From Ulva prolifera (Eukaryota > Chlorophyta > Ulvophyceae > Ulvales > Ulvaceae): DNA of 64,000 nt. The stretch covers positions 310,001 to 374,000 of the forward strand of contig CM041200.1 of assembly GCA_023078555.1 (NCBI GenBank), given 5' to 3'. The translations under genes were made by a program, and so were the position numbers. Shown one piece after another: positions 5,098 to 61,200 of the stretch (positions are counted from its first letter, which is position 1; each line of letters starts with the position of its first letter). The notes below the pieces were generated by a model. It did not search any database, was not told the origin of the DNA, and saw nothing but the letters and a program-made list of their open reading frames with translations.

Positions 5098-5114
5098 CAG
5101 GGTTTATGGGGGAG

Positions 5115-13397: not shown

Positions 13398-13477
13398 GTA
13401 GCTGCAGCATGTCCCTTACATGTACTTCGGTGCTGGTTGTCAAACACGTGCCGTGTGTCACCGCACTATAGCGCGCT

Positions 13478-13826
13478 TGTCAGAAACGCTCTCTATCTGC
13501 AGGTCAGACGCGCAGTCTTAAGTCAAGTCAGGCAGCCAGCATTCCATACCTGTTGCGCACAGAGGTAGAACCGAGGAATGCGAGGGGGAGATCAGGATAC
13601 AGCTAGTACCGTGAAACAGTGATAAGAATGGTTACAGATCTCAGTGTGCACATGCTTAGATGCACACTGAACACTCAAGGTTACGACGGGAAACCCTCGC
13701 ACGATCTCTCTCGCTACATCGAGACAATCACGGCTGGCGGCTTACCCCTGCACCGGATCCGCAGATCGTCCGTGCATGGGTGCACCTGTCACCACGCTGC
13801 TGCCCGCAGGCTCATGCATTGTGACA
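13478..13826 (-). mobile_element. Copia solo LTR with intact target-site duplication
   Basis: This is a 349-bp LTR of the same family as 5115-5461 in reverse orientation, with ends TGTCAGAAAC and TTGTGACA. A perfect 5-bp duplication GCGCT flanks it (13473-13477 and 13827-13831), so it is a true insertion followed by LTR-LTR recombination. It lies within the TIR element at 12991-14025 and is therefore younger than that element. Confidence 0.9.
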
Positions 13827-26011: not shown

Positions 26012-26036
26012 CGCACGCTGGCCCCATCGGCGCCTT

Positions 26037-26712
26037 TGTAAGAGCATGACATGAATGTCGTGGCCTAGCTATGTACCTGAGCCATGCTCGTTGCTAGCAT
26101 TGCTCGAGCCAGCGCAGCTGCGCGCAAATGCACTCACGCTGCGTGCATCCGTCTGCACATGCATGCATGCGTGACTGTGCGCTCAGCCGTGCCATCAGCT
26201 CTGATGCACGCTTGTCTCTGCACTGCTTGATGTAGTTGCAGTGCTCATAAGCCTTCTCATCCTTGAGGAAGCTCGGCCGATTGGGGCTGAGAACGAAATT
26301 AAAATACTATCAATTGCATCGGGATGAACGGCCTCTATGTTGTGACGTGCCGAGCTGACAGTGAAGAATAGACAGTGTTCTGAGTTGTGGGCATGTAGGA
26401 GGAAGCAAAGGCCTCGGTGCGGAGCAGTGTTGAAAGGGAGTGTAAGATGGTGCATTCAAACTAATTAAGATATCAAGATACAAGATTCGAGCTCAAGTCA
26501 AGTAGTACCAAGACAGGATCAAGCAAGACTGGCGTTCTCATAGGTACTTGAGGGCATTGTATTAGCACTTAAGACTGCATCAATTCGCATGGTGACAGTC
26601 AGTTCAGCTTACTCCCTATTACTAGAGCTCATAAGCTTGTGTTGTCTAGGCCACTCACATGCCTAGCTGCCTTGGAACCATCCTGGTTCAGGGCCTTTGT
26701 AAGATCATGACA
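26037..26712 (+). repeat. Right arm (inverted LTR-like repeat)
   Basis: This is the reverse complement of 23090-23765. It starts TGTAAGAGCATGACA and ends TGTAAGATCATGACA, so each arm also carries near-identical 15-bp direct repeats at its two ends. It ends 58 bp before the VPS13 stop codon (26771-26773). Confidence 0.88.
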
Positions 26713-33300: not shown

Positions 33301-36300
33301 TCGACCGTCTGCTGGATCCGTTGTGGAATGGATAGCACAGTAGCGAGAAGTCAACAGCGTAAGACCACCCATTGGTGTCAGTGTTGGGGCCCCGCTCCAC
33401 ACGCCAGGGGCCTTGCCACATCCAACCTGATGGCGGGTTGACAATCGGGAACTGGGTTGAGGAGTTGCTGCCGTTTCGCAGCTTGCTGTACCTGCAGCAC
33501 CATAGCAGCGCTGCGCATGGTGGCCTTTCTCTACTCTGGGCCAAAACGTCTCCATACACAATAGAACACTGAGCTTCAGTTGGGATCCTCATGTTTTGAG
33601 AAAGCAACAGCACACCTCCTGGGATCGAGAGGCATAAGATGCCCTGGTTTGAAACCTTTGAACGGCAGAGAGCGCTCGTTCTCCAGAACCTCATCCTGCA
33701 CAACCTCTGGTGCAGCGGATGCGACTGCGCTTCCCTGCAGGATGTCTGAGCCAGCCATTGATCGTGCCTGTAGTTGCTCAACACCAGACAACGACCCGAC
33801 CCGTGACAATGCGCTGGACTTCAGGGTCCCCTCAAGCCGCATCATCACTTGCGACCCTGGTGCCACCTTCACTGCAACCTGCAACACGCGCACACCAATC
33901 CGAAATCGCTTCAGGGTCACCCGCACGCTCAATTATGTAAATCAACACATCCTGGTGAAGATGTGACAGACTGCAGGAGCAGGTGTGTCTGGCCTACCTC
34001 TACATCAAAGTCCAGTAAGTTGTGCAGGCGAACTGAAGTCCTCACAGTCTCCCTTCGAACTCCACCTGCAAACGACTCCTCAAGGACAAGCCCTGACATG
34101 ACATCGAGGCCGAGCACGCTGCCTGACAGGGCATCTGATCCCGTTGACGCCTGCTTCATCCCATCTTGCACAATGGGCTGCCACCGCATGTCGGCACCGC
34201 CCATCCGAAGCGATCGATTACCCCGCTGTGACTTGCTCTGGTTAAGCTCCACCTCGTCCGGAGTATCATCGACCCAGCTTGCCACCCGCTGCAGCTGCAT
34301 CCTCATCCCCACGGACTCGTTGCAGTCATCGTGTTCTGGCTGTGCTGCTTTCCACAGCAGGACATCGGCTTGGATCCCATCCACGTTCACATCGTGTGCC
34401 AGTGAGTGCTCAAGCGACTTGAGGGCAGCTTTGCGAAGATCCTGCGACTGCAGCACGAACTCACCAGTTGCACGCAGGCCCGTCTGCCTTCCATTGATGG
34501 ATTTGACCTTCTGGTCATGCAGACGGACGACCACCGTAAGCGCATGACACAGGTGCCTTGGGGACGGTGCGCCGCTGCGCGTTCGGCGCCGCCGCATCTC
34601 GGAGTTTACGTCTTCGGCCAAGGCGCTGGCCACACCGTGCGGGAGTTCAAGCAGGAAGGTCTCCCGGACTGCAATTGTGCCGGTGCTGTTTGGGTGACGC
34701 AGGCATCGCGTGCACGTGACGGCCTGTGCACCGTCGACCACCATACGTGCAACACGGCTGCCAGGGGATGCGCTGGTGAGAGCGATTGTGAAGAAGCTCT
34801 CCTTTGTCACGTCCGCAGCAGTATGGTCCGCCTGCGCACATGTCGATGTTTGTCAGCATGTGAAGTCCAGGGCCCTGTGGAAGTTCATGCGACTGTAGCA
34901 GACAGCGGTTTGACCATGCGCCATAAGAGGTCATGAGCTGAAGCGAGAGGCTGTACCGCATGGTGAAAGTCGTCAAGTGTTATGCTGAGCAGCATGGTGG
35001 GCCGGTGTGCTTCCTCCGCAGATGTGGAATTCAGCATGCGTGGCACAGGACGTACAAGTGGCTGCATGAGCCGCTGCACTCCCTTGCCCAGTTCTGCAAC
35101 GTGTGTGCGGTCCCCAAAGTCCATCCACATCTTCAATGGCTCACCAACAGCATTGTGCACCTCGGTGAGTACAACAGCATTGTCTGCTGCAGCAGCATGG
35201 CGGTGCAGGGCGCCACTGTCATTGCTCGCAGCCGCATTACGCCACCATGCCAGGGCTCGCAGGCTGGAGTCCAGGGTAGCATGCGTACAAGTCAGGTGCA
35301 ACGGCGAGTTGACACCGATTGTCAGGGACGTCCCAGAATCTCCGTTCGCTGGTTGAACAGCACCACTGTCTCCGTCATGGGAGAACTGTGCCTGCAGGGG
35401 AAACACATGCCCGAGGGGCGTGAAGATCTCTTGCAGGGGGATGAGAGACAAGTCTTGTTGTATGAGCGCTCAAAACATGTTTGAAATCACACCTGAAGTC
35501 CGACAGGAGCCATCACTTGTTCCCATGTCTTCAAGGGTGCATTGTACGACCAAATCTCTGGAGAGCAGGAGGCATTGCCGGACAGCAACCCATTTGGCCT
35601 CATTTCGCACTCTAACATAACTTGCGATGTTGCGACCTCGAGCAAGGGTACCCGTAGGATGTCACGCACACGGATGCAAACGCTGCTGACATTGACATGC
35701 ACGGAGAATGGATGTGCTTTGGGGCTTTCAAGCGCAGTCGTGGGCACAGTGCCTGAAAGATCAAGCACAGGGCAAGGATGGCCGGTGGAAATTGTCGGGC
35801 GCCACTGAAGTGTTTGCAGTGCATGGTCATACACGCACAGGGAGACTGACGGTGGCGTAGGCCCAAATGGATCGTCAGAGGGGGCCGTAACGTTCACATT
35901 GACGAAAGGCGGGTCTGTGATCATGCTGAAGAGGTCATTGCGGACGCAGTAAGCAGTGAAGGAAGGAGGCGGCCTCCCGTCAGTTGTGGCCACCATGCCG
36001 AGCGCAGCGTATCCAGGCTGTGCTATGGGCTTCCACACCGACAACGATGATCTGGTCCCTTCGTCCTTCCATACCCTCTGGAACTCCTGCAAATGCAATC
36101 AGGCTGTCAGCTTGGAGCAAGTGTAAATCCACACTTGCGTGTCAGGTGTGAAAATGCAATGCAGGGCAGGTGGTGCAAAGGAACATGGCTGCTGGGACTA
36201 AAGCAGCATGCCTTAGCGGGAGCCACAAAGTGCTTTTCAGCCGTGTCATCAACTTGAAGGACAGTGACGGACTTGGGTGCAGCCCAGCTGCCGCTGACAA

Positions 36301-39300
36301 GGCAATCCCCCAAGGCAATGTATCCATGGGCAGGGATGGGCCGCCAAATAGACACAGCATTCTGGCGTGATGGACCACACTGCTTGTTGCTCCATACTCG
36401 ATCAAAGACGACCGTTGAGGAGACAATGGATGCAGCTTGAGCCTGTTGTACAGACCAGCTCCACCGATTCTGGAAGTCCTTGTGCCCCCTACAAAAGACC
36501 ACACCCATGTGTTCTTCCTACACATTGATTCACCTGGACATGCAGCTGTTGGCTTAGTCTACCGCAGGGTACGCACTTGAACGACTGCAGGCCTGCCTTT
36601 GTCGAATACGCGCAGCCACTATCCTCCATCTCTGTTGGAAGCTGGACATCCATTACGTCAGGGGGCCGCGCAGCGCCCAGTGGACTCCTCAGGTCGAAGC
36701 AAGAAACTTCCGGAAGGCCGTCTGCATTCCACGTGATCATTTGCTTTTGCTTGAGACTCGTGCCAACCAAAACGCCTTACACGTAAGCACAAACTGCAAA
36801 TGAACACAAGCTGTGGATCACCTGATGCATGTGTGATCACGGATGGCAGGCAAACTGACGAGTCCCCTTCAGCATTCGCTCAGAGCCGTACCACTACGCT
36901 CGGAGAAGAAGAAGGAGCCAGCAGCATTATCGATTGCCCACAGGCACCCGTCGCCTGTGCGTATGAGGCACTCACCCAGCCGGGACTGCACCAGCACCTG
37001 CCTGTGCACGCACACCATGCTCTGCACCTGTGGTTCTTCGCCCAGTGTGACCATGCAGCCGAGTGCAATGTGTTCTGGTGGCGGAATGGCATCCCACACC
37101 ACGGCCTTGTCTGCTTTCCATCGCCTCTCAAAGCGCAATGGCCACTTGACAACCCCGGAGTTCAATGCAATGCATACAACCTGGTGCGTAGGCTGTGAGT
37201 GCCCAGAGGTGAGAACGTGGCCAAGAATTGCATGGCCAGGTGGGCACACAGGGGCCCAGAAAGTGAAGCCTTTCTCCTGTCCCATGAAATCGAGGCCGCC
37301 AGATCCAATGGACGCAAAGGGCGGGGCGCTGCTCTTCCGGTGGTGAGATGAGCAGATGCACTCATATGAGTTGACTGCGTACAATGGCTGTGCGGCGCTT
37401 GCACTCAAAACTGGTCGCAGGATAGTGTCAGAGACATCAGAGAGAATCGTCAGCACATCTGGAGACACATTGACCATCACTTTCGTGAGTTCAACCGCAA
37501 CATCGTACTTCTCACCATCATTCTTGTAGGCAGCCGTCATGTCCATTGGCTCAAGAACCTTGCCCTGAAGCGGTAACAGCATCACCATCAAGCACAAGGC
37601 ACAATGCCAGTCTCAATGAACAGGACAGCCAGAGCAGCTGCGATGTGATCTCTACTCGCACTGCACATTAAGCTGGCATGCTAGATGGCATCTTGCGTGC
37701 CACCCGGCATACCAATCATGTCTTGATTCCACAAACAGGTTTGTTCCAATGCAAATCACTGCATACTGCACGAACAACAGGTTCACATGTGTTTGGTCCA
37801 TGCATGTGCAGGAAGTTTGTTGCAAACCTGTGTGATTCCAGCACCACGCCGGAGAATGCCACCATGCAAATGAGCAACGACCTCTGACGTTGAGTTTTGT
37901 TCGGTGGATGTGATTTGGCTCTCCATGCGCAGGCCCTTGAGGCAAAGGCTTGCCGTCTCCTTCTTGCCGGCTCCGCAGCCATATGTCGCCTGGACATCGG
38001 CATACACTGCCAGCAGTGGCACCTCCTACATCCTGAATTCTGTTACCAACCATCTGTACACGAAAGCGGCACAGGGTCAAGAAAATCATTGCTTTAATTT
38101 CTGTGCGCCTATCGTTCGACTGCGAACCTTCTCATGGCTTCCACTGCTGGCCGGTGACTGGGGCTCGCACGCAAGAACATGGAAGCCTGCTCCGACTGCT
38201 GTAAAGTCAATCTGCACAACCACTTTCACTTGGTACGTTCAGTTAGGCAGAAAACAGGAATCATAGAACGATATCATCACTCCGTGCATGCCAACGTGGC
38301 AGTCAACATGTTAGCTAGCAAAGGCAATATATTGCAGCTGCCTTCACTTTTGACCCCTCTCATTATTTGGCAGCGGTATCAGGTGGCCACCACTCACATA
38401 AACACTCTTCTTTGCGACAGCGGCGATCGTACAGCCTGACCTTGTGCCAAGACATTCAGTAAGCTTGATTTCATGATTTCAAGAGGCGCGCAAACAGAGC
38501 CTGTTGCACACAGAGCCTGTTGCTCGTTAGTGAGCATGGCAGCACTGAATTAGCTCTACATCCCACAGAGCACATGTATAGCTCATACCTGCAGATGCTC
38601 TGCACTCTGTGGTGATTTTGCAGATGACACCGGAAAGACATCCTGCAACTGTTCTGTCGCGCGCCCGAGGACGGCCATGGGATCCTGCATGTCCACTGGT
38701 GCAAATTCGAGCAGCATCACATTATCCTCCTCTCGAGCGATCAATCTGGCTCCAGGGGACATAAACATGCACGCTGGCAGAGAATGGCTGTTGTAGATGT
38801 TGACATTCTTAAACTGTAGAGTAATGTCATTCCCTATGGCAATCAAGGGCAACTCGTTGGTGGGGTCCAAGTCTGGAGGAAGGATGACGCTGTGGCCAGC
38901 ACCATCATAGACGTAGAAGCTGCGGCTGCTGTCATCTGCCAGCAACCGGTTTGATGGCGACAGCCACAAGTGATCCGTTGCCACAAATTCTGCCTCAGTT
39001 AGACTGCACAGCATAGATGCTTTTAGGATCACTTTTCCGCAGCGCCATGAGACTGCGGGGAACTTGAATAGATCTGTACATGGCACGCACGCATGGACAC
39101 GGTGCAGCCGCATGCGCCGTAATCTGTGCCAGCTGCACCTAAGCAGTACCTCCGCAAGTGAAAATCTGGTGCATATACAGCATGGTCAACACATGGGATC
39201 CGCTGATGAACCAGAAGGGGCGCACTGTGTATCGCGCAAGGTGTATGGCACGGGCTCACCACCGAGCACCAAGGATGGCACGACAAATTTGAGTGAAGCG

Positions 39301-42300
39301 ATGATGAAGTCCACTTCAGCCACAAGAGTGGGTCGTTGCAAGCGGACGACAATGTCCTGGCCTCCTCGTGGATCCAGTCTATACTCCAACGTCAGTAAGC
39401 TGGGCCCCACTAAAGCTGCAGCATCTGAGGATGTAGGCATCTGGGTACTTGAAGACAGCACAAGAGATGATGCAGCCGCCCGAGTTTCCCGCAGGTCATG
39501 CGCCTCCAGCCGTGGCAGGCAGACGCGCACGTCCATGTGGCCTGGCCCGTTGGAGATATAGCTGATGAATAGCTTAGACGCATGCAGTAGACCTAGCTGT
39601 GTCATATCCTGCCTCTCATGCTCGTTTGTGACCTCGAGCTCCACTTTACTAAAACTGAGCGTGGCACGCATCTGTGATGAGACGGCGGCAGTGCCAGGTA
39701 GCACAGGCGCTGGAATTTCACTGTCAGAATGATCCTGCTGTTTCTGAGGATGACATGCACTTACGGCTGCTTTGTCTACCAGCTCTTGCACCCATAGGGC
39801 TGTTGCAGGCAGGCGCATTTGTTCTCGCAGATTGGCAAGGGACACAGTGGTGCAGAAATCATATTCGTTGTCTGAGACACATGCCAACACGCATGGCACC
39901 TCAACGTGACAGTCAACGTAAGGGATGGTCAAGGTTGGGTCCACAAGAGCACGCGTAATGGTCAAGCTCAGGCCCTCGTCCAACTGTCGGATCAAGTTGC
40001 GGCCTTGATTTGGTCCAGAGATGACGCGGGCATTCACCTGCACAGCATCCCTTGCCGATGTGGCATTGCAGACTTGTCTAATATGAATTCCGACGCACTG
40101 GAGAAAACCACCACATTTCAGCAATTGCATACCTGTTGCAGTGAGACCTCCATGAGGTCAACTAACTGGCCAGCCCCGACACAGATGATGCGATTTGTGA
40201 CTGTGAGGATGCCCAGGTCCACCTCGAGGCTGTCCTTTGACTCGGAATTTCTGGGCATCTCGATGACAGGAGCATTCATCTCCACATCAAGGAGCACTGC
40301 GAACCCCAATTGCTTGGTGATGTCTGCGAGGTCTGCTCTCTTCTGATTCAGCTCTCTGGAAATGGCATCCAGGGATGCCGGTCGATCAGGCGCATGCCCA
40401 GGCGTGCTTTCGCAGGTGTTCCGGGAAGGAGGAGGAAGGGGTGTCGGAAAGGCCCCAGCATCCGCCAGAACAGGATCTGCAAGCTGTGGAGGGCAGAAGT
40501 GGAGTAGGCCAGAAATGTACGACAGGAATTCACACAGAAAACGATTGAGGTAGACAATTGTGACGGCCTGCATGTCTGCACGGAGTGAGCAGTAAGGTAT
40601 TCCATCTGGCACCCGAGGCTCGCTGTAGGATTCTTTCAGACTGTGCATCCTGCAGCAAGGCAAGTGCTTCAACTCAAATTGGCAAGATAGCACAGTATAC
40701 CGAGCATATTCTGGTGACACATGATGGCCGGAGATGGCTTGGAGAATCTCTGGGAGTCCCTGGGTATATCTGCGCCGATGGAGCAGAGTGCATAGGAACC
40801 GCACTTGAACTCCATGGTTATGAGCGATTCGCATGCATCATTTCGCAGCCCACAGCTCTGACGGTATGGGTTTTCTATTGGGAGCATGTGATCTTCAACT
40901 TGCACATTCCCTAGATTGGCTTTCAGCAGAAGTGTCTCCGGGTGTACATCAACGTGCATGTCAAAGTCTGAGACATTGCACTGCAGCAGCGGCGTCACAC
41001 TGTATCCCTCAAATCCCAGTTGCAGTTCCAGCTTTGATACGGCCAGCCTGAGCTTGAAGACGGTACGGGCTTCGCCACCAGACCGTGCCGGTGTGTCGCA
41101 CGCAGCACTGGGGGATAGCTGCGGCAGAGAGCCACTATTTGCTGTAGCTGCGCGAGTCGGTGTCTTCAACATTTCGTTTTCATCAGCTGTTACAGCACGC
41201 GGAGTAGCAGCTTCCCCCATGTCTTCTGCCGTGTTTGCTGTAGTCACTACTGGATACACAATGTCCTGTGCGAAGCACATGAGCGCGGCAACAGTCGGAC
41301 GATTGCACAGGAAGTACAACGCTGATACTGACACGTCCAGGGACATGTCCAAACGCTCATATGACGGTGAAGTCGCTGCATCCCACATGTTAAAGGATAT
41401 GACTGCCAAGCTCTGTGCATCACCATCAACTGCTTCTTCCTACACTGCAAGAATGCCTGAAGCTGATGGATCATGACAAAAAGTCACAGCATATGCATTT
41501 AACAGGCCGCATAGCAGCAAAAGTAACATCACAGCAAATCTGAAAGGCTTCCGGCAAGCGTGGGGTTCAAGCAAGATGAAGAAGAATGCGGATCCATCAG
41601 AGTCGACAGGACACCCTGCACCTCGTACTAATGTGATAGCAGAGCACGCACCACAGCGGCCAAGGGCAGCACAGATGGCAGCGCGCTTGACATGTCATCC
41701 CACGTTTCGGAGACATTGCTACTTACGTTGCCTGCGAAAGCCATTTCGCTGCAGGCACTGTGCATACTTTCGCTGCCAGAATCACCTGCAATATCACCTG
41801 CAGCCAATTTACTTGCCTCACGCTTGCTTGATAGGTCCCCTCCAACCAAGGGACTGTCGGCAGCATCTGTGTGTGGGAACGAGCGTGCAAGGAAGCGGAG
41901 AGACTTGTTGATAGCTCCCACCAGGCGATCCTCAATGATAAAACGCTGTAGTCTAAGGCTCAATTCCATTGTACCCAGTCCCTGCAGGATGGAATATCAT
42001 ATTTTGCGACACATTCAGCATTTGGACTCAGTCCGACAGACTGGCGGCAAACCGATTGCGCAAAACCGATACGTCCATACTGTACATCATTCATGCAAAG
42101 ACCCAATTACACACAGGAAGGTACATGCACATGCTTTGAGCTGCTGCAAACAATCAGTCACATGCCATGTTCGAAAACCCTAGAAGCCACCGCGGATGTG
42201 ATGACACTGGGTAGTCAGGATGACGGACACAGCTATTATGGAAGCAGCCAATACCACAGGAGATGGTCTTGCTGTACAAGAAATTCTGAACAGGCATGCA

Positions 42301-45300
42301 GAGTCTTGTGAAGACTCAGTGTAGCAGGATGGAGGTACCTGCTGGTACCTTAAAAGACCTCCTTCAGCCACAATCGAGATCAGCGGCCGTTCATCGCCGA
42401 TCATATGAACGTCATCTCGAACCTCTGTGAGACTTGAAGCATTCCGATCCACTACTGGCGTAGGTGCCTTTGATATTTCAGGTGGGGGCCAGAACTCATC
42501 AGCTGCACGCGCAGATGCATGCAGTGCCAAGCGACCCAGATGTGCTGAAATCCTGAGATAAATGCTAGCATTTGGGCTAAAAGCTGATTCGGCACCGGCT
42601 GTGTACCCTTCTGACATTTCTGCTGCAGACGCTGGGGGAGAGTTGGTCACAGAAGGCATTACAGATGAGTCCTTCACGGAGACATCGTACGGAAACTGTG
42701 TGACTTCCTACACCAAGTGGAGCATCTCTTGATATGCCAGGAGCACACAGCTCACGCTAGCTGAATTGCGGAACAAGTGCTGTGTCAGTGGCTCGGCGGC
42801 AAGATTGAAGGTTCACCTGTTTCCTGTGCCATACTGCCACAGAATGCATCTGTGCGGCAGAATGCCGCAGTCGGCGCGTCCATTCCTGTAACATGTAGTC
42901 GGACTGCAGCCGCAGAATCACCGCTGATACCTCTTCCACGGCGTTGTCACGTTGAATATGCGAAGGAAGGACTGCAAGCACATGTGGCACACCCCCTGCA
43001 ATTCATCGTGATTGCGATCTTGGCTGAACGATTCACCGCAGGTCAACGAGGCAGACATAACATGATGCATCCAAAACAGACTGCAATGGGCTACGGTGCC
43101 TGCTGTAGCCAAGGCGACTGCCACACTGCTTACATAAGCAATAGCGTATCATGTACACAGCTCAAAAAGAAAGTCACTGCAGCAGAGCACCTGTAAGCTC
43201 CTCTGGAAGGGGAAGTACACGGCGGCCCTGCCAAAGCGCGACCTGGCGCACAATGACTGGGGATCCCTCGCTTTGCATAATGTAGAGAGTGCCACGGTAG
43301 ACAACAGCATATCGAGGCAGCCATTGGCTGCTCACTCCGGCCAATCCCTGCCACGCTAGCACATCCACCGCGCTTGTGTACTCCGCAGCTTTCACCCAAG
43401 GAGCGGGGTCTGTGGGAACATCGGTGGTCGGCACAAGGGTTTGCATCACAAGCAGGAGCTGGGTCAGGCGGTATGGACTGACATGCAAAGTGATCTCTGG
43501 AACCTGCACAGCAATGCACTTCACATGATATCAAATGCTGGTGCGGGCACATCCTGCAGGAACCTGCCAAGCCAACGCTCCAGATACTTGTGCTGCCATA
43601 GATGCATACCTCAAGGCCTACACGCACAAAGGGAAGAGTCGGGTGTGATGCATGGGCTACATGCACACTTGCTGTGGTGGAGCAGTGGCCGAGAAACGGG
43701 ACAGCCACAGCTGAGGGTCCAAGATAGTCTGATATCAGTTGACCAGTAAGTCGCCTTCTGGCGTCGCCCGGCTGTACAGGACTGACAAGGCCCGCATCTG
43801 TCAGGGACCCTGATAACGTGCGCGTCATATCGGGCCACACGAAGGGGCCTTTGATCACGTAGACAGCAATGTCGTAGGACAGGAGCCCATAGCAGTCATA
43901 TAAGGCGGCTTCCTCTGGGCTGAGACTGCTGGCTTCAATTTGGTTGCTGGTGATGACAAGGCTGCCCAGGTCAACAAACAAGGTTTGCAGAACTGGCTGT
44001 CCAGCGTCGTCCTGTTGATCGGTAATCGGGATGGCCACCTTGGGAGCATGCAGGTCAAGGTGCATGTGTATCTTAGGTCGGTTGCTCCATGCAGCATGCA
44101 CTTGCTGCTGCGCGATTGCCTGCAGATCACCACTGCTTGTGCAAACGTGAATCCTTTTACCCTGAAGCCATTCACCATGGCATTCAAGCCGGAATGATGT
44201 GTTCTGACATCAAGGCAACCGCAACGTTACCAGGCCTGCCACAGTGACTCCAGGAGATATCATTTAAAATCATGCAGGATTAATGACAGACAAACAACGG
44301 AGATGCAAATCTATTGCTGTTGCCTGAGATGTGATTTGGAACTGCAGGTTGCGTGGTGACAAGGTGGATGAACCTGTGCCAGAAAAGAAAACCGAAAGAG
44401 CAACAAACCGCTTCAAGTAATATGACTAGGGAATTTCACCTGCATCTCCTGGATTCGGGTGGCCGCTTGTGCTCCCAATGCTGAGAGGTCCAGCATTTGT
44501 TGCTCCTCCATGATGAAACATTGATGGATCCGTGCAATGGCGTCAACATCATATGTAACGTATGCCGGTGCCATGCGCACTTTCACATCATGGTCCACAT
44601 TGTGGTTGTGTGGCTGCCTTGTGTACTGCACCAGCAGGAATTGAGGGTTGTCTTTGTCGGACAAGGCCCCTGTTTGAATGATGTTGCATCCTGGTGAAAC
44701 AAGCGCACTCGATTCAATTGAGCAGGTGGCCTTTGCCATGCCCTGGAAAATCTCATGCGTCAGTTTCAAAGCGGAAGCAGACATGGTAGCTACAGTCCCA
44801 TCCTTGTCTACCAAGCACACGGATGTCTTATTTACTGCGACTGCAATGCGTGTTAGCAACTGGAGCGGGTCTGAGCTCTCGATCACAGACGCCTGCAAGC
44901 ACCATGAGTGGTCAGAAATTTTTCACACGGATACCAATTCAAATCAGGCGCAGCTGGACCATGCCTGTGCTTGCACCATGTCTTCCAGCGTCTGGACTTC
45001 AGCATCAGTGAGATACGCTCGCTCCACCTGCAGCTCATCACCGTCCACATGCTGGACATCAACATCCTCTGCTGCAGGGGTGCTCTCATCTACACGGGGT
45101 GTGCCAAAGCCCATCCACTGCACCCACGTTCGCTGCCGTGATCGCCGCTGATTGAGATCACCCTTAGGAAGCTGGGCTTGCTCTAGTCTACGAATACGTG
45201 CATGAGCCAACTTTCGAAAATGTAGAATGACCTCCTTTGGCAGCTGCTTGTCCAGGTCGAGGATCTGTGCATCTAATGTAGCGACGCCACTTCGGATATG

Positions 45301-46793: not shown

Positions 46794-47153
46794 AGTTGTG
46801 CAGGACGCATGCACATGATAAGAGAGGGGATGTGACGATCGCTGGACATGGCTCACTTCACGCCAAACTGTACGTTGCCCACAAGCGCGCGGCTGCACTT
46901 CGACAAGACGGCAGAGGTGTAGCAGTTTGGATGCAGTTGCACTTTTGCGAGATCGCTACTTGTAGCCACGAAGCTCGAGCGCGAAGGTCATAGCAACGAA
47001 ATTGACCACACGTGCGCAACATGGGTTCCTGGACAGAACTGCCTACAATCAGTGCCTCGCGTCATGGCTTCAGCGCTCGCGACCGTGGCCACGCGTGACT
47101 AGATTACCAGGCCAGTCAACTTCGATGCGACACCCAGACGAATCAACTTTGCG

Positions 47154-47154
47154 N
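47154..47154. other. Single N at the duplication junction (assembly join)
   Basis: This is the only ambiguous base noticed in the window. It lies exactly between the end of the first copy (AATCAACTTTGCG) and the start of the second (GCCAAAACGTC). It therefore looks like a scaffold join of two overlapping contigs. Confidence 0.9.
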
Positions 47155-50100
47155 GCCAAAACGTCTCCATACACAATAGAACACTGAGCTTCAGTTGGGA
47201 TCCTCATGTTTTGAGAAAGCAACAGCACACCTCCTGGGATCGAGAGGCATAAGATGCCCTGGTTGAAACCTTTGAACGGCAGAGAGCGCTCGTTCTCCAG
47301 AACCTCATCCTGCACAACCTCTGGTGCAGCGGATGCGACTGCGCTTCCCTGCAGGATGTCTGAGCCAGCCATTGATCGTGCCTGTAGTTGCTCAACACCA
47401 GACAACGACCCGACCCGTGACAATGCGCTGGACTTCAGGGTCCCCTCAAGCCGCATCATCACTTGCGACCCTGGTGCCACCTTCACTGCAACCTGCAACA
47501 CGCGCACACCAATCCGAAATCGCTTCAGGGTCACCCGCACGCTCAATTATGTAAATCAACACATCCTGGTGAAGATGTGACAGACTGCAGGAGCAGGTGT
47601 GTCTGGCCTACCTCTACATCAAAGTCCAGTAAGTTGTGCAGGCGAACTGAAGTCCTCACAGTCTCCCTTCGAACTCCACCTGCAAACGACTCCTCAAGGA
47701 CAAGCCCTGACATGACATCGAGGCCGAGCACGCTGCCTGACAGGGCATCTGATCCCGTTGACGCCTGCTTCATCCCATCTTGCACAATGGGCTGCCACCG
47801 CATGTCGGCACCGCCCATCCGAAGCGATCGATTACCCCGCTGTGACTTGCTCTGGTTAAGCTCCACCTCGTCCGGAGTATCATCGACCCAGCTTGCCACC
47901 CGCTGCAGCTGCATCCTCATCCCCACGGACTCGTTGCAGTCATCGTGTTCTGGCTGTGCTGCTTTCCACAGCAGGACATCGGCTTGGATCCCATCCACGT
48001 TCACATCGTGTGCCAGTGAGTGCTCAAGCGACTTGAGGGCAGCTTTGCGAAGATCCTGCGACTGCAGCACGAACTCACCAGTTGCACGCAGGCCCGTCTG
48101 CCTTCCATTGATGGATTTGACCTTCTGGTCATGCAGACGGACGACCACCGTAAGCGCATGACACAGGTGCCTTGGGGACGGTGCGCCGCTGCGCGTTCGG
48201 CGCCGCCGCATCTCGGAGTTTACGTCTTCGGCCAAGGCGCTGGCCACACCGTGCGGGAGTTCAAGCAGGAAGGTCTCCCGGACTGCAATTGTGCCGGTGC
48301 TGTTTGGGTGACGCAGGCATCGCGTGCACGTGACGGCCTGTGCACCGTCGACCACCATACGTGCAACACGGCTGCCAGGGGATGCGCTGGTGAGAGCGAT
48401 TGTGAAGAAGCTCTCCTTTGTCACGTCCGCAGCAGTATGGTCCGCCTGCGCACATGTCGATGTTTGTCAGCATGTGAAGTCCAGGGCCCTGTGGAAGTTC
48501 ATGCGACTGTAGCAGACAGCGGTTTGACCATGCGCCATAAGAGGTCATGAGCTGAAGCGAGAGGCTGTACCGCATGGTGAAAGTCGTCAAGTGTTATGCT
48601 GAGCAGCATGGTGGGCCGGTGTGCTTCCTCCGCAGATGTGGAATTCAGCATGCGTGGCACAGGACGTACAAGTGGCTGCATGAGCCGCTGCACTCCCTTG
48701 CCCAGTTCTGCAACGTGTGTGCGGTCCCCAAAGTCCATCCACATCTTCAATGGCTCACCAACAGCATTGTGCACCTCGGTGAGTACAACAGCATTGTCTG
48801 CTGCAGCAGCATGGCGGTGCAGGGCGCCACTGTCATTGCTCGCAGCCGCATTACGCCACCATGCCAGGGCTCGCAGGCTGGAGTCCAGGGTAGCATGCGT
48901 ACAAGTCAGGTGCAACGGCGAGTTGACACCGATTGTCAGGGACGTCCCAGAATCTCCGTTCGCTGGTTGAACAGCACCACTGTCTCCGTCATGGGAGAAC
49001 TGTGCCTGCAGGGGAAACACATGCCCGAGGGGCGTGAAGATCTCTTGCAGGGGGATGAGAGACAAGTCTTGTTGTATGAGCGCTCAAAACATGTTTGAAA
49101 TCACACCTGAAGTCCGACAGGAGCCATCACTTGTTCCCATGTCTTCAAGGGTGCATTGTACGACCAAATCTCTGGAGAGCAGGAGGCATTGCCGGACAGC
49201 AACCCATTTGGCCTCATTTCGCACTCTAACATAACTTGCGATGTTGCGACCTCGAGCAAGGGTACCCGTAGGATGTCACGCACACGGATGCAAACGCTGC
49301 TGACATTGACATGCACGGAGAATGGATGTGCTTTGGGGCTTTCAAGCGCAGTCGTGGGCACAGTGCCTGAAAGATCAAGCACAGGGCAAGGATGGCCGGT
49401 GGAAATTGTCGGGCGCCACTGAAGTGTTTGCAGTGCATGGTCATACACGCACAGGGAGACTGACGGTGGCGTAGGCCCAAATGGATCGTCAGAGGGGGCC
49501 GTAACGTTCACATTGACGAAAGGCGGGTCTGTGATCATGCTGAAGAGGTCATTGCGGACGCAGTAAGCAGTGAAGGAAGGAGGCGGCCTCCCGTCAGTTG
49601 TGGCCACCATGCCGAGCGCAGCGTATCCAGGCTGTGCTATGGGCTTCCACACCGACAACGATGATCTGGTCCCTTCGTCCTTCCATACCCTCTGGAACTC
49701 CTGCAAATGCAATCAGGCTGTCAGCTTGGAGCAAGTGTAAATCCACACTTGCGTGTCAGGTGTGAAAATGCAATGCAGGGCAGGTGGTGCAAAGGAACAT
49801 GGCTGCTGGGACTAAAGCAGCATGCCTTAGCGGGAGCCACAAAGTGCTTTTCAGCCGTGTCATCAACTTGAAGGACAGTGACGGACTTGGGTGCAGCCCA
49901 GCTGCCGCTGACAAGGCAATCCCCCAAGGCAATGTATCCATGGGCAGGGATGGGCCGCCAAATAGACACAGCATTCTGGCGTGATGGACCACACTGCTTG
50001 TTGCTCCATACTCGATCAAAGACGACCGTTGAGGAGACAATGGATGCAGCTTGAGCCTGTTGTACAGACCAGCTCCACCGATTCTGGAAGTCCTTGTGCC

Positions 50101-53100
50101 CCCTACAAAAGACCACACCCATGTGTTCTTCCTACACATTGATTCACCTGGACATGCAGCTGTTGGCTTAGTCTACCGCAGGGTACGCACTTGAACGACT
50201 GCAGGCCTGCCTTTGTCGAATACGCGCAGCCACTATCCTCCATCTCTGTTGGAAGCTGGACATCCATTACGTCAGGGGGCCGCGCAGCGCCCAGTGGACT
50301 CCTCAGGTCGAAGCAAGAAACTTCCGGAAGGCCGTCTGCATTCCACGTGATCATTTGCTTTTGCTTGAGACTCGTGCCAACCAAAACGCCTTACACGTAA
50401 GCACAAACTGCAAATGAACACAAGCTGTGGATCACCTGATGCATGTGTGATCACGGATGGCAGGCAAACTGACGAGTCCCCTTCAGCATTCGCTCAGAGC
50501 CGTACCACTACGCTCGGAGAAGAAGAAGGAGCCAGCAGCATTATCGATTGCCCACAGGCACCCGTCGCCTGTGCGTATGAGGCACTCACCCAGCCGGGAC
50601 TGCACCAGCACCTGCCTGTGCACGCACACCATGCTCTGCACCTGTGGTTCTTCGCCCAGTGTGACCATGCAGCCGAGTGCAATGTGTTCTGGTGGCGGAA
50701 TGGCATCCCACACCACGGCCTTGTCTGCTTTCCATCGCCTCTCAAAGCGCAATGGCCACTTGACAACCCCGGAGTTCAATGCAATGCATACAACCTGGTG
50801 CGTAGGCTGTGAGTGCCCAGAGGTGAGAACGTGGCCAAGAATTGCATGGCCAGGTGGGCACACAGGGGCCCAGAAAGTGAAGCCTTTCTCCTGTCCCATG
50901 AAATCGAGGCCGCCAGATCCAATGGACGCAAAGGGCGGGGCGCTGCTCTTCCGGTGGTGAGATGAGCAGATGCACTCATATGAGTTGACTGCGTACAATG
51001 GCTGTGCGGCGCTTGCACTCAAAACTGGTCGCAGGATAGTGTCAGAGACATCAGAGAGAATCGTCAGCACATCTGGAGACACATTGACCATCACTTTCGT
51101 GAGTTCAACCGCAACATCGTACTTCTCACCATCATTCTTGTAGGCAGCCGTCATGTCCATTGGCTCAAGAACCTTGCCCTGAAGCGGTAACAGCATCACC
51201 ATCAAGCACAAGGCACAATGCCAGTCTCAATGAACAGGACAGCCAGAGCAGCTGCGATGTGATCTCTACTCGCACTGCACATTAAGCTGGCATGCTAGAT
51301 GGCATCTTGCGTGCCACCCGGCATACCAATCATGTCTTGATTCCACAAACAGGTTTGTTCCAATGCAAATCACTGCATACTGCACGAACAACAGGTTCAC
51401 ATGTGTTTGGTCCATGCATGTGCAGGAAGTTTGTTGCAAACCTGTGTGATTCCAGCACCACGCCGGAGAATGCCACCATGCAAATGAGCAACGACCTCTG
51501 ACGTTGAGTTTTGTTCGGTGGATGTGATTTGGCTCTCCATGCGCAGGCCCTTGAGGCAAAGGCTTGCCGTCTCCTTCTTGCCGGCTCCGCAGCCATATGT
51601 CGCCTGGACATCGGCATACACTGCCAGCAGTGGCACCTCCTACATCCTGAATTCTGTTACCAACCATCTGTACACGAAAGCGGCACAGGGTCAAGAAAAT
51701 CATTGCTTTAATTTCTGTGCGCCTATCGTTCGACTGCGAACCTTCTCATGGCTTCCACTGCTGGCCGGTGACTGGGGCTCGCACGCAAGAACATGGAAGC
51801 CTGCTCCGACTGCTGTAAAGTCAATCTGCACAACCACTTTCACTTGGTACGTTCAGTTAGGCAGAAAACAGGAATCATAGAACGATATCATCACTCCGTG
51901 CATGCCAACGTGGCAGTCAACATGTTAGCTAGCAAAGGCAATATATTGCAGCTGCCTTCACTTTTGACCCCTCTCATTATTTGGCAGCGGTATCAGGTGG
52001 CCACCACTCACATAAACACTCTTCTTTGCGACAGCGGCGATCGTACAGCCTGACCTTGTGCCAAGACATTCAGTAAGCTTGATTTCATGATTTCAAGAGG
52101 CGCGCAAACAGAGCCTGTTGCACACAGAGCCTGTTGCTCGTTAGTGAGCATGGCAGCACTGAATTAGCTCTACATCCCACAGAGCACATGTATAGCTCAT
52201 ACCTGCAGATGCTCTGCACTCTGTGGTGATTTTGCAGATGACACCGGAAAGACATCCTGCAACTGTTCTGTCGCGCGCCCGAGGACGGCCATGGGATCCT
52301 GCATGTCCACTGGTGCAAATTCGAGCAGCATCACATTATCCTCCTCTCGAGCGATCAATCTGGCTCCAGGGGACATAAACATGCACGCTGGCAGAGAATG
52401 GCTGTTGTAGATGTTGACATTCTTAAACTGTAGAGTAATGTCATTCCCTATGGCAATCAAGGGCAACTCGTTGGTGGGGTCCAAGTCTGGAGGAAGGATG
52501 ACGCTGTGGCCAGCACCATCATAGACGTAGAAGCTGCGGCTGCTGTCATCTGCCAGCAACCGGTTTGATGGCGACAGCCACAAGTGATCCGTTGCCACAA
52601 ATTCTGCCTCAGTTAGACTGCACAGCATAGATGCTTTTAGGATCACTTTTCCGCAGCGCCATGAGACTGCGGGGAACTTGAATAGATCTGTACATGGCAC
52701 GCACGCATGGACACGGTGCAGCCGCATGCGCCGTAATCTGTGCCAGCTGCACCTAAGCAGTACCTCCGCAAGTGAAAATCTGGTGCATATACAGCATGGT
52801 CAACACATGGGATCCGCTGATGAACCAGAAGGGGCGCACTGTGTATCGCGCAAGGTGTATGGCACGGGCTCACCACCGAGCACCAAGGATGGCACGACAA
52901 ATTTGAGTGAAGCGATGATGAAGTCCACTTCAGCCACAAGAGTGGGTCGTTGCAAGCGGACGACAATGTCCTGGCCTCCTCGTGGATCCAGTCTATACTC
53001 CAACGTCAGTAAGCTGGGCCCCACTAAAGCTGCAGCATCTGAGGATGTAGGCATCTGGGTACTTGAAGACAGCACAAGAGATGATGCAGCCGCCCGAGTT

Positions 53101-56100
53101 TCCCGCAGGTCATGCGCCTCCAGCCGTGGCAGGCAGACGCGCACGTCCATGTGGCCTGGCCCGTTGGAGATATAGCTGATGAATAGCTTAGACGCATGCA
53201 GTAGACCTAGCTGTGTCATATCCTGCCTCTCATGCTCGTTTGTGACCTCGAGCTCCACTTTACTAAAACTGAGCGTGGCACGCATCTGTGATGAGACGGC
53301 GGCAGTGCCAGGTAGCACAGGCGCTGGAATTTCACTGTCAGAATGATCCTGCTGTTTCTGAGGATGACATGCACTTACGGCTGCTTTGTCTACCAGCTCT
53401 TGCACCCATAGGGCTGTTGCAGGCAGGCGCATTTGTTCTCGCAGATTGGCAAGGGACACAGTGGTGCAGAAATCATATTCGTTGTCTGAGACACATGCCA
53501 ACACGCATGGCACCTCAACGTGACAGTCAACGTAAGGGATGGTCAAGGTTGGGTCCACAAGAGCACGCGTAATGGTCAAGCTCAGGCCCTCGTCCAACTG
53601 TCGGATCAAGTTGCGGCCTTGATTTGGTCCAGAGATGACGCGGGCATTCACCTGCACAGCATCCCTTGCCGATGTGGCATTGCAGACTTGTCTAATATGA
53701 ATTCCGACGCACTGGAGAAAACCACCACATTTCAGCAATTGCATACCTGTTGCAGTGAGACCTCCATGAGGTCAACTAACTGGCCAGCCCCGACACAGAT
53801 GATGCGATTTGTGACTGTGAGGATGCCCAGGTCCACCTCGAGGCTGTCCTTTGACTCGGAATTTCTGGGCATCTCGATGACAGGAGCATTCATCTCCACA
53901 TCAAGGAGCACTGCGAACCCCAATTGCTTGGTGATGTCTGCGAGGTCTGCTCTCTTCTGATTCAGCTCTCTGGAAATGGCATCCAGGGATGCCGGTCGAT
54001 CAGGCGCATGCCCAGGCGTGCTTTCGCAGGTGTTCCGGGAAGGAGGAGGAAGGGGTGTCGGAAAGGCCCCAGCATCCGCCAGAACAGGATCTGCAAGCTG
54101 TGGAGGGCAGAAGTGGAGTAGGCCAGAAATGTACGACAGGAATTCACACAGAAAACGATTGAGGTAGACAATTGTGACGGCCTGCATGTCTGCACGGAGT
54201 GAGCAGTAAGGTATTCCATCTGGCACCCGAGGCTCGCTGTAGGATTCTTTCAGACTGTGCATCCTGCAGCAAGGCAAGTGCTTCAACTCAAATTGGCAAG
54301 ATAGCACAGTATACCGAGCATATTCTGGTGACACATGATGGCCGGAGATGGCTTGGAGAATCTCTGGGAGTCCCTGGGTATATCTGCGCCGATGGAGCAG
54401 AGTGCATAGGAACCGCACTTGAACTCCATGGTTATGAGCGATTCGCATGCATCATTTCGCAGCCCACAGCTCTGACGGTATGGGTTTTCTATTGGGAGCA
54501 TGTGATCTTCAACTTGCACATTCCCTAGATTGGCTTTCAGCAGAAGTGTCTCCGGGTGTACATCAACGTGCATGTCAAAGTCTGAGACATTGCACTGCAG
54601 CAGCGGCGTCACACTGTATCCCTCAAATCCCAGTTGCAGTTCCAGCTTTGATACGGCCAGCCTGAGCTTGAAGACGGTACGGGCTTCGCCACCAGACCGT
54701 GCCGGTGTGTCGCACGCAGCACTGGGGGATAGCTGCGGCAGAGAGCCACTATTTGCTGTAGCTGCGCGAGTCGGTGTCTTCAACATTTCGTTTTCATCAG
54801 CTGTTACAGCACGCGGAGTAGCAGCTTCCCCCATGTCTTCTGCCGTGTTTGCTGTAGTCACTACTGGATACACAATGTCCTGTGCGAAGCACATGAGCGC
54901 GGCAACAGTCGGACGATTGCACAGGAAGTACAACGCTGATACTGACACGTCCAGGGACATGTCCAAACGCTCATATGACGGTGAAGTCGCTGCATCCCAC
55001 ATGTTAAAGGATATGACTGCCAAGCTCTGTGCATCACCATCAACTGCTTCTTCCTACACTGCAAGAATGCCTGAAGCTGATGGATCATGACAAAAAGTCA
55101 CAGCATATGCATTTAACAGGCCGCATAGCAGCAAAAGTAACATCACAGCAAATCTGAAAGGCTTCCGGCAAGCGTGGGGTTCAAGCAAGATGAAGAAGAA
55201 TGCGGATCCATCAGAGTCGACAGGACACCCTGCACCTCGTACTAATGTGATAGCAGAGCACGCACCACAGCGGCCAAGGGCAGCACAGATGGCAGCGCGC
55301 TTGACATGTCATCCCACGTTTCGGAGACATTGCTACTTACGTTGCCTGCGAAAGCCATTTCGCTGCAGGCACTGTGCATACTTTCGCTGCCAGAATCACC
55401 TGCAATATCACCTGCAGCCAATTTACTTGCCTCACGCTTGCTTGATAGGTCCCCTCCAACCAAGGGACTGTCGGCAGCATCTGTGTGTGGGAACGAGCGT
55501 GCAAGGAAGCGGAGAGACTTGTTGATAGCTCCCACCAGGCGATCCTCAATGATAAAACGCTGTAGTCTAAGGCTCAATTCCATTGTACCCAGTCCCTGCA
55601 GGATGGAATATCATATTTTGCGACACATTCAGCATTTGGACTCAGTCCGACAGACTGGCGGCAAACCGATTGCGCAAAACCGATACGTCCATACTGTACA
55701 TCATTCATGCAAAGACCCAATTACACACAGGAAGGTACATGCACATGCTTTGAGCTGCTGCAAACAATCAGTCACATGCCATGTTCGAAAACCCTAGAAG
55801 CCACCGCGGATGTGATGACACTGGGTAGTCAGGATGACGGACACAGCTATTATGGAAGCAGCCAATACCACAGGAGATGGTCTTGCTGTACAAGAAATTC
55901 TGAACAGGCATGCAGAGTCTTGTGAAGACTCAGTGTAGCAGGATGGAGGTACCTGCTGGTACCTTAAAAGACCTCCTTCAGCCACAATCGAGATCAGCGG
56001 CCGTTCATCGCCGATCATATGAACGTCATCTCGAACCTCTGTGAGACTTGAAGCATTCCGATCCACTACTGGCGTAGGTGCCTTTGATATTTCAGGTGGG

Positions 56101-59100
56101 GGCCAGAACTCATCAGCTGCACGCGCAGATGCATGCAGTGCCAAGCGACCCAGATGTGCTGAAATCCTGAGATAAATGCTAGCATTTGGGCTAAAAGCTG
56201 ATTCGGCACCGGCTGTGTACCCTTCTGACATTTCTGCTGCAGACGCTGGGGGAGAGTTGGTCACAGAAGGCATTACAGATGAGTCCTTCACGGAGACATC
56301 GTACGGAAACTGTGTGACTTCCTACACCAAGTGGAGCATCTCTTGATATGCCAGGAGCACACAGCTCACGCTAGCTGAATTGCGGAACAAGTGCTGTGTC
56401 AGTGGCTCGGCGGCAAGATTGAAGGTTCACCTGTTTCCTGTGCCATACTGCCACAGAATGCATCTGTGCGGCAGAATGCCGCAGTCGGCGCGTCCATTCC
56501 TGTAACATGTAGTCGGACTGCAGCCGCAGAATCACCGCTGATACCTCTTCCACGGCGTTGTCACGTTGAATATGCGAAGGAAGGACTGCAAGCACATGTG
56601 GCACACCCCCTGCAATTCATCGTGATTGCGATCTTGGCTGAACGATTCACCGCAGGTCAACGAGGCAGACATAACATGATGCATCCAAAACAGACTGCAA
56701 TGGGCTACGGTGCCTGCTGTAGCCAAGGCGACTGCCACACTGCTTACATAAGCAATAGCGTATCATGTACACAGCTCAAAAAGAAAGTCACTGCAGCAGA
56801 GCACCTGTAAGCTCCTCTGGAAGGGGAAGTACACGGCGGCCCTGCCAAAGCGCGACCTGGCGCACAATGACTGGGGATCCCTCGCTTTGCATAATGTAGA
56901 GAGTGCCACGGTAGACAACAGCATATCGAGGCAGCCATTGGCTGCTCACTCCGGCCAATCCCTGCCACGCTAGCACATCCACCGCGCTTGTGTACTCCGC
57001 AGCTTTCACCCAAGGAGCGGGGTCTGTGGGAACATCGGTGGTCGGCACAAGGGTTTGCATCACAAGCAGGAGCTGGGTCAGGCGGTATGGACTGACATGC
57101 AAAGTGATCTCTGGAACCTGCACAGCAATGCACTTCACATGATATCAAATGCTGGTGCGGGCACATCCTGCAGGAACCTGCCAAGCCAACGCTCCAGATA
57201 CTTGTGCTGCCATAGATGCATACCTCAAGGCCTACACGCACAAAGGGAAGAGTCGGGTGTGATGCATGGGCTACATGCACACTTGCTGTGGTGGAGCAGT
57301 GGCCGAGAAACGGGACAGCCACAGCTGAGGGTCCAAGATAGTCTGATATCAGTTGACCAGTAAGTCGCCTTCTGGCGTCGCCCGGCTGTACAGGACTGAC
57401 AAGGCCCGCATCTGTCAGGGACCCTGATAACGTGCGCGTCATATCGGGCCACACGAAGGGGCCTTTGATCACGTAGACAGCAATGTCGTAGGACAGGAGC
57501 CCATAGCAGTCATATAAGGCGGCTTCCTCTGGGCTGAGACTGCTGGCTTCAATTTGGTTGCTGGTGATGACAAGGCTGCCCAGGTCAACAAACAAGGTTT
57601 GCAGAACTGGCTGTCCAGCGTCGTCCTGTTGATCGGTAATCGGGATGGCCACCTTGGGAGCATGCAGGTCAAGGTGCATGTGTATCTTAGGTCGGTTGCT
57701 CCATGCAGCATGCACTTGCTGCTGCGCGATTGCCTGCAGATCACCACTGCTTGTGCAAACGTGAATCCTTTTACCCTGAAGCCATTCACCATGGCATTCA
57801 AGCCGGAATGATGTGTTCTGACATCAAGGCAACCGCAACGTTACCAGGCCTGCCACAGTGACTCCAGGAGATATCATTTAAAATCATGCAGGATTAATGA
57901 CAGACAAACAACGGAGATGCAAATCTATTGCTGTTGCCTGAGATGTGATTTGGAACTGCAGGTTGCGTGGTGACAAGGTGGATGAACCTGTGCCAGAAAA
58001 GAAAACCGAAAGAGCAACAAACCGCTTCAAGTAATATGACTAGGGAATTTCACCTGCATCTCCTGGATTCGGGTGGCCGCTTGTGCTCCCAATGCTGAGA
58101 GGTCCAGCATTTGTTGCTCCTCCATGATGAAACATTGATGGATCCGTGCAATGGCGTCAACATCATATGTAACGTATGCCGGTGCCATGCGCACTTTCAC
58201 ATCATGGTCCACATTGTGGTTGTGTGGCTGCCTTGTGTACTGCACCAGCAGGAATTGAGGGTTGTCTTTGTCGGACAAGGCCCCTGTTTGAATGATGTTG
58301 CATCCTGGTGAAACAAGCGCACTCGATTCAATTGAGCAGGTGGCCTTTGCCATGCCCTGGAAAATCTCATGCGTCAGTTTCAAAGCGGAAGCAGACATGG
58401 TAGCTACAGTCCCATCCTTGTCTACCAAGCACACGGATGTCTTATTTACTGCGACTGCAATGCGTGTTAGCAACTGGAGCGGGTCTGAGCTCTCGATCAC
58501 AGACGCCTGCAAGCACCATGAGTGGTCAGAAATTTTTCACACGGATACCAATTCAAATCAGGCGCAGCTGGACCATGCCTGTGCTTGCACCATGTCTTCC
58601 AGCGTCTGGACTTCAGCATCAGTGAGATACGCTCGCTCCACCTGCAGCTCATCACCGTCCACATGCTGGACATCAACATCCTCTGCTGCAGGGGTGCTCT
58701 CATCTACACGGGGTGTGCCAAAGCCCATCCACTGCACCCACGTTCGCTGCCGTGATCGCCGCTGATTGAGATCACCCTTAGGAAGCTGGGCTTGCTCTAG
58801 TCTACGAATACGTGCATGAGCCAACTTTCGAAAATGTAGAATGACCTCCTTTGGCAGCTGCTTGTCCAGGTCGAGGATCTGTGCATCTAATGTAGCGACG
58901 CCACTTCGGATATGTTGCACATACAGGGGCACATACTCCCGCTGGATCTTCAGGTACCTCATTAGGTCCCACCACGTTGGCCGCCCCTGTCGCAGCCGAT
59001 TGGTGACAGCCTTAAGGGCATACCTCCACCACAAGCGGACACCAGCACCCATGGGGCGAGAGCTGGGCCTGAACATCTGGTGTGGAAGGCGGAGCTGCAG

Positions 59101-60407
59101 CGAAGAGCTGACTCACACGCAGGTGGAACTGTGAAGATCAATGAGTCTGCATGCACGTCCAGGCACGGATGCTGGCATGTCCCAAAAGCAATGTGCATGT
59201 GCTTCAACATACCTGATGACGCGATAGCTCTTGGAGCAGCAGCGTGACATTCAAAGCCTGCACGTGAGATAAACGGAGCGCAAACTCTGGCCAATTCATG
59301 ATGATCTCTTGGTATGGGGTGGATTGAATGTCAACGACGTCAGTGGTGCGCCTCACATATGTCCCTTCACCATCAACTGGATTGAGCACGTACTGGCGAT
59401 GTTCTACAGCGTCATCATCTGCAATTCCTGGGCTGAAGTGCGTGTCCCAGTCAGCTGTGCTCCACTGCTGGATCTGGTGTTCTTCACTGAGCAGGTAATC
59501 AACATCTGCAGCAACGACACAGTGTGAATGGGACTTGTTGTAATCATGAGCTCCACACACAGCACAGCGGTAAGATTTTGGCAAGGTCTGGGCATGCCTG
59601 TGTCAAAGTAGATTGCAAATCGCGACAGCTGCGAAGCTTTTCTGAGAAGAGCCATTGCCGCCTTCTTCACAAACATCTCATTGCCTACATCATCAACAGT
59701 AAATGCGCCCACACTGTGCAGCGTAGTCCCAATTGCAAACGGATGCCCCGGGCGTGTGATGGTGTCTTCGTAACGAATGTGCAGGTTCGTTACCTGTACA
59801 ACAACTAATGTGGCCGTGCACAGCTCGCCATGACTCACGATCTCCCAGATTTGCACACACCTTGATTTTGAGATTGCCCAAGACGATATTGGTGACGCCT
59901 TGCAAGTAGCTGGTAGAGTCGGAATCGTTGACATGCTCTTGGGCATGCATACCGTCTACCCATAACTTTTCTTGAGCATGCACCTGTGCCCGCTTGAGCG
60001 CATCCAAACGCTCCTCTTCATGCTGCATATCCTCTGGAGGAGGGGCATCTTGCTGGTAGCTTGGAACTGCCAGCAGGTAGAGGCGATCGATCTCAACTTG
60101 CACTTGCTGCCTCCCCAGCGCAGCCCATGGGATCTGAACGTCACATCTGATGTGCATAAGTGCGTGCTTTGAGGCAACGACCACACCATAAGAGCTTAGG
60201 CAATACCTTTAGGCGCAGAGATCCCAAAACACCTCCTTTCACTGTGACTGGAAGGTCGAGGTCTTGCAATGCCTCCGCACGCAGCTGCAGATCCTGCAAC
60301 ACGACGTCTCCAGCCCATACGGACACCCGTAATTTGTCCGAATCTAGACCTGTCACATACTTGCCGAGATACTTGTTGAGATAAAAACTGAGGACTGGTT
60401 CTAACAT
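47155..60407 (-). CDS. VPS13: Second copy of the VPS13 5' part (exons 1-23 and part of 24), probably an assembly duplicate
   Basis: The start codon is at 60405-60407, with exon positions equal to those of the first copy plus 13,614. Exon 24 begins at 47492 and runs in frame into the N at 47154, where it stops abruptly without a donor or stop codon. The reading across 47263-47264 (KGFNQGILCLSIPGG) is continuous here, unlike the first copy. So this copy probably has the correct base count at that T run. If the block is an assembly artefact, this is the same gene as 26771-46793 and should not be counted as a paralogue. It also shows the genuine upstream flank of VPS13. Confidence 0.85.
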
Positions 60408-60767
60408 AGTTGTGCAGGACGCATGCACATGATAAGAGAGGGGATGTGACGATCGCTGGACATGGCTCACTTCACGCCAAACTGTACGTTGCCCACAAGC
60501 GCGCGGCTGCACTTCGACAAGACGGCAGAGGTGTAGCAGTTTGGATGCAGTTGCACTTTTGCGAGATCGCTACTTGTAGCCACGAAGCTCGAGCGCGAAG
60601 GTCATAGCAACGAAATTGACCACACGTGCGCAACATGGGTTCCTGGACAGAACTGCCTACAATCAGTGCCTCGCGTCATGGCTTCAGCGCTCGCGACCGT
60701 GGCCACGCGTGACTAGATTACCAGGCCAGTCAACTTCGATGCGACACCCAGACGAATCAACTTTGCG
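47155..60767. repeat. 13.6-kb duplicated block, second copy (probable unmerged contig overlap)
   Basis: Near-exact copy of 33540-47153, in direct orientation. Its right end continues into unique sequence (60768 onward) that leads to UTP7, whereas the first copy's right end stops at the N. The left end starts in the middle of a VPS13 exon at the N. This is what two overlapping contigs placed end to end would produce. A true tandem partial duplication is possible but less likely. Confidence 0.9.
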
Positions 60768-61200
60768 CAGTGTCAATAACATATGCCACCTGTGTGCTTC
60801 TTCGTAGCACAGTATCGTTGTTCGAGAGCAACTTGCAACTGTATCTGTGTGCCGTGACCTGGTGGGGACCCCACCCCCCCCCGGCCTTGAGGAATCACTT
60901 GCCTATTGGTACCATGCGCAGGATGCTGCATGTATACATTCAATGCAGTCGTACAGTCCATTGGGCACAATCACGTAGGCCAGGCTCTCGTGATGAAGGT
61001 GAACAGTGCGATTGCATCCGGTACAGGAACCGTTTATGGACTGTATCTCAATGTGATGAAAGCTGCCTGTTTACAATTCACAGTTGCAAAACGGCCTGAA
61101 ACCAGATTGGAACGTAGGTAGCCACGGACACGAGCTTGATGTTGGTCTCCATGGTCACACGTGGGCATGAGCAGCGTGCAGACTCTCATATGTCAGGCTG
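60768..61200. other. Intergenic region between UTP7 3' end and VPS13 5' end
   Basis: With the shared 360 bp up to the VPS13 ATG (60407), about 790 bp separate the UTP7 stop from the VPS13 start; both genes are on the minus strand. It must hold the UTP7 3' UTR and the VPS13 promoter. A C-rich run (CCACCCCCCCCCGGCC-like, about 60872-60886) is the only conspicuous feature. No gene is seen. Confidence 0.6.
61071..61075 (-). terminator. Candidate TGTAA poly(A) signal of UTP7
   Basis: TGTAA on the minus strand lies about 126 nt beyond the UTP7 stop codon. TGTAA is the common polyadenylation signal in chlorophyte green algae. A 5-mer is weak evidence by itself. Confidence 0.35.

Follow-up and report, generated by a model that had tools for sequence, protein, structure and literature searches.

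Does the chromosome of Ulva prolifera carry two copies of a 13.6-kb block that includes most of a VPS13-like gene, or was a single copy written twice when the genome was assembled? The question arises from a window of 64,000 nucleotides (contig CM041200.1, positions 310,001 to 374,000; contig positions are prefixed with C5 below), in which this block appears as a direct repeat. The most probable answer, which we would give a likelihood of about 94%, is that the doubled block is an assembly artefact, an overlap of two contigs that was left unmerged.

Self-BLAST of the window aligns the two copies (Table 1) over 13,614 columns with 0 mismatches and 1 gap, i.e., 99.993% identity, and places their boundaries exactly where an earlier, sequence-only reading of this DNA had put them. 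Direct comparison of the copies reveals one difference, a run of T that is 3 bases long in copy 1 and 2 bases long in copy 2. The earlier reading was right that a single T is all that sets the copies apart, but “homopolymer” was a generous term for so short a run. Mononucleotide runs of at least 6 bases are absent from copy 1, where ~11 would be expected from the base composition, and the window as a whole contains 29 of them versus ~51 expected; the shortage within the block may reflect its coding content or a shortening of such runs in the consensus.

Table 1. Features of the doubled block and its surroundings (window coordinates)
Feature	Position	Strand	Basis or comment
Copy 1	33540..47153		Putative right-hand end of the left contig (13,614 bases); self-BLAST, left-edge query
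Single N	47154..47154		Putative scaffold join mark; lone N in 294 kb, analogy with LINKS as described in excerpts of its paper
Copy 2	47155..60767		Putative start of the right contig (13,613 bases); self-BLAST, right-edge query
TTT, copy 1	33648..33650		Direct comparison, reading frames, protein matches
TT, copy 2	47263..47264		Probably a consensus error; inner contig end at a distance of 110 bases
Predicted GT-AG intron (124 nt), VPS13-like gene	33492..33615	-	Spans 33540; splicing by script and alignment of the spliced peptide
VPS13-like N-terminal exon stretch, copy 1	46590..46793	-	PF12624 (VPS13_N) positions 1-68, 88 bits, E = 4.7e-25; six-frame match
VPS13-like N-terminal stretch, copy 2	60204..60407	-	Six-frame match at C5:370204-370407, score equal to copy 1
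DysF-like stretch	33242..33493	-	Left of copy 1, 3' continuation of the gene, without a counterpart in copy 2; PDB matches to myoferlin, TECPR1, and dysferlin
Utp7/WDR46-like gene pieces	61651..63001	-	Beyond the right edge of copy 2 and upstream of the VPS13-like gene; phmmer Utp7 E = 1.3e-33, BING4CT E = 3e-33

The only N in the window sits exactly between the copies, as had been noted before, and it is also the only one in 294 contiguous kb (C5:110001-404000), a region that comprises the window, 200 kb to its left, and 30 kb to its right. The observation thus concerns one such junction in 294 kb of an 88.9-Mb assembly. At the outer edges of the block, identity stops abruptly: the sequences share 1 further base on the left and 0 on the right, and no microhomology beyond that one base was found at the block edges. 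The next longest direct repeat within the window measures ~2.1 kb at 78% identity. For the 294 kb as a whole, 22 pairs of repeats were listed with a length of at least 300 bp and an identity of at least 95%; apart from the doubled block, the remaining 21 are all 2,994 bp or shorter.

Some of the remaining repeats in the window belong to mobile elements. A Copia-type retrotransposon occupies C5:308881-315465 (window positions 1-5465), with an open reading frame (ORF) at 685-5097 that contains the RVT_2 domain (E = 5.4e-56); it is flanked by direct repeats of ~356 bp that are 98.9% alike, the left one lying outside the window. Diverged relatives of this element, some of them inverted, are found within window positions 205-13826. 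Positions 23090-26712 comprise two inverted 686-bp arms (99.4% identical) around an ORF that encodes RNase H, PHD-finger, and integrase domains. The presence of inverted rather than direct arms around this gypsy-like piece looks unusual; by eye, no target-site duplication is visible on the outer sides of the arms.

The number of copies was examined in the assembly (88,887,114 bases in 44 contigs, with the window on a contig of 9,759,355 bases), using DNA searches in which only the best candidates were scored and very common words were skipped. Two queries from within the block (47000-47153 and 40000-42000) matched only at the two copies. The query that spans the right edge (60700-62200) gave one full-length match, and its first 68 bases additionally matched the end of copy 1; likewise, the left-edge query (32600-33640) gave one full-length match, and its last 101 bases additionally matched the start of copy 2. 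The block queries thus match in two places and the tested flanks in one, so that no third copy or alternative haplotype contig was found among the scored candidates of these four queries, which sample the block together with ~0.9 and 1.4 kb of sequence outside its edges.

The VPS13-like gene that fills most of the block is encoded on the minus strand. Its N-terminal stretch scores above the VPS13_N cut-off of 80 bits, and a six-frame search of the assembly with this region as a query returned 9 matches, 8 of which form four pairs in the two blocks, with the ninth at C5:869603. Vps62-like matches were obtained for 2 of the 9 ORFs in or beside the block and also at 26916-27527, which suggests that the gene probably extends down to ~27 kb. 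An exon-by-exon search, with only the best candidates scored, placed the VPS13 adaptor-binding (VAB) domain (PF25036) at three sites in the genome, none of them in the window. Further VPS13-like matches on the same contig, at C5:860219-869758 and C5:1437306-1437644 (VAB domain, part of VPS13_N), indicate that the genome probably encodes additional members of the VPS13 family.

Both flanks of the doubled block continue recognizable genes. Residues 29-112 of a 112-residue peptide predicted across the left edge match only C5:343242-343493, the DysF-like stretch, whereas copy 2 matches only residues 1-23. Together with the Utp7/WDR46-like matches, this shows that the VPS13-like gene crosses the left edge of the block and that a neighboring gene lies beyond the right edge. 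The same order of flanks would, however, result from a real tandem duplication, so that the case for an artefact is carried by the N, the identity of the copies, and the place of their single difference.

A very recent tandem duplication, in which copy 2 would be a genuine truncated VPS13-like paralogue and the N an unresolved base or gap at the junction, accounts equally well for the block order and the continuous outer flanks. If it were very young, even the lack of divergence could be accommodated: 0 substitutions in 13,613 positions give an upper 95% bound of ~2.2e-4. Nevertheless, we regard this explanation as quite improbable. The sole N in 294 kb coincides with the junction, and the junction does not occur in the assembly as uninterrupted sequence, because the N breaks it, although reads might show it unbroken. 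A duplication would make a coincidence, at the level of ~1-2%, of the location of the one-base gap, 110 bases into copy 2 from its inner end; random placement would bring it as near to that end with a chance of ~0.8%, and as near to either inner end with a chance of 1.6%. The block edges, moreover, offer no useful microhomology, although end joining needs none. Least probable of all is a heterotype false duplication, in which two haplotypes of a heterozygous genome, rather than overlapping contigs of one haplotype, were set end to end. According to the excerpts of PMC9516828, 5 of the 6 tabulated assemblies contain more heterotype than homotype false duplication, and the single indel could be an allelic difference; with 0 substitutions over 13.6 kb, however, the haplotypes would have to be all but homozygous in this region, and the difference is found near a contig end.

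An unmerged contig overlap, the explanation already proposed in the sequence-only reading, agrees with the N at the junction, the near-total identity, the abrupt edges, and the failure of our searches to find a third copy. It also fits two further observations, namely, that the flanks match once and continue recognizable genes and that the lone difference lies 110 bases from an inner end. Consensus sequence is expected to be poorer at contig ends. Under the overlap explanation, two contigs of the assembly would share ~13.6 kb. The left one would end at 47153, which is 360 bases upstream of where the minus-strand VPS13-like gene starts, and the right one would start at 47155, close to the 3' portion of this gene and probably in an intron. 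The scaffolder would have put the contigs in the right order, left the overlap unmerged, and written out both copies with one N between them. Such an overlap would correspond roughly to a single long read in length, so that the contigs may share a read at their ends. We infer that the chromosome would carry the block once and a single VPS13-like gene here, from 46793 (equivalent to 60407) to ~27 kb, beside the Utp7/WDR46-like gene. The gene in copy 2 would then be a spurious duplicate, truncated at its 3' end, which probably contains one consensus error close to the end of the contig.

Which copy contains the wrong base depends on how the gene is read at the left edge, where we predict a GT-AG intron of 124 nt. 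Copy 2 would keep 76 of these 124 nt and lack the acceptor. In copy 1, removal of the intron joins the upstream exon to the DysF-like stretch, and the spliced peptide aligns through the join with both myoferlin (residues 3-109; E = 2.3e-5) and TECPR1 (residues 3-106; E = 4.5e-5). The unspliced frame of copy 2 shows main alignments with these two proteins only from residue 76 or 87 (E = 5.3e-4 and 4.4e-4), apart from an extra 0.6-bit stretch with TECPR1 at residues 3-23; combining the base count of copy 2 with splicing loses the DysF frame altogether. Codon usage, with 2,431 codons in eight ORF stretches of the VPS13-like gene as the training set, leans weakly to the spliced model: the tail of the spliced exon scores +0.16 bits, whereas the unspliced copy-2 frame, over its 54 codons, scores -3.94 bits. 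On the other side, dysferlin gives nearly the same E value with either peptide (3.6e-5 for spliced copy 1 versus 4.2e-5 for the copy-2 frame), and the unspliced copy-2 frame runs without a stop through all 54 codons to 33492. The Pfam domain Pex24p scores 21.6 and 20.7 bits with the two versions, in both cases under the cut-off of 26.8. The better protein match of spliced copy 1 over the copy-2 frame combines the effect of intron removal with that of the one-base difference.

Because spliced copy 1 gives the better match to DysF-like proteins, copy 2 is probably the one in error and the base count of copy 1 the correct one. By the same gene model, copy 2 probably starts inside an intron. The sequence-only reading, which may have followed the unspliced frame, had it begin in mid-exon; this would hold, with the error then in copy 1, if the unspliced copy-2 frame were right; we consider this unlikely in view of the alignment of the spliced peptide across the join with TECPR1 and myoferlin, even though the alternative frame is open for 54 codons. 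The argument for an artefact is the same in either case, as it depends on where the difference sits and not on which copy errs.

If the block is not corrected, annotation of this assembly could report a false truncated VPS13-like gene along with a surplus of 13.6 kb, and reads from the block would be divided between the two copies during mapping. For other assemblies, aligning the two sides of every very short run of N with each other would be a cheap screen.

False duplications are known to arise from unmerged overlaps, as described in excerpts of PMC9516828 and PMC7649008. The doubled block resembles the homotype false duplications of the Vertebrate Genomes Project, which the excerpts of PMC9516828 describe as near-identical copies on one scaffold with a gap between them and a false gain of genes. 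The copies here, with 0 substitutions and 1 gap over 13,614 columns, would fit that class, and an assembly gap lies between them at 47154. This gap is a single N, however, and the likeness is drawn from the assembly sequence, whereas the class is defined by read k-mers and depth. The arrangement is also that of an unmerged overlap in Bionano scaffolding, termed a “negative gap” in the excerpts of PMC8389630: contig 1, a short gap mark, and contig 2, with the shared region present twice. According to the excerpts of the BiSCoT paper (PMC7649008), such scaffolding doubled 515 regions, or ~24.5 Mb, in one human assembly; the mark used there is 13 N, compared to one N in our case.

The mark itself resembles that of the LINKS scaffolder, which, according to excerpts of PMC4524009, writes a single gap letter between contigs that it judges to overlap. 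Among the literature matches listed for scaffolder conventions, the available excerpts contain no single-N rule outside the LINKS paper. LINKS prints a lower-case n in those excerpts, whereas the sequence file used here is entirely without lower-case letters, so that case is no guide to the tool. In the Ulva prolifera sequence, exactly one gap letter separates two stretches that are identical, all the way between the N and their outer edges, save for one one-base gap. By analogy with LINKS, the N at 47154 would be the mark of a contig overlap.
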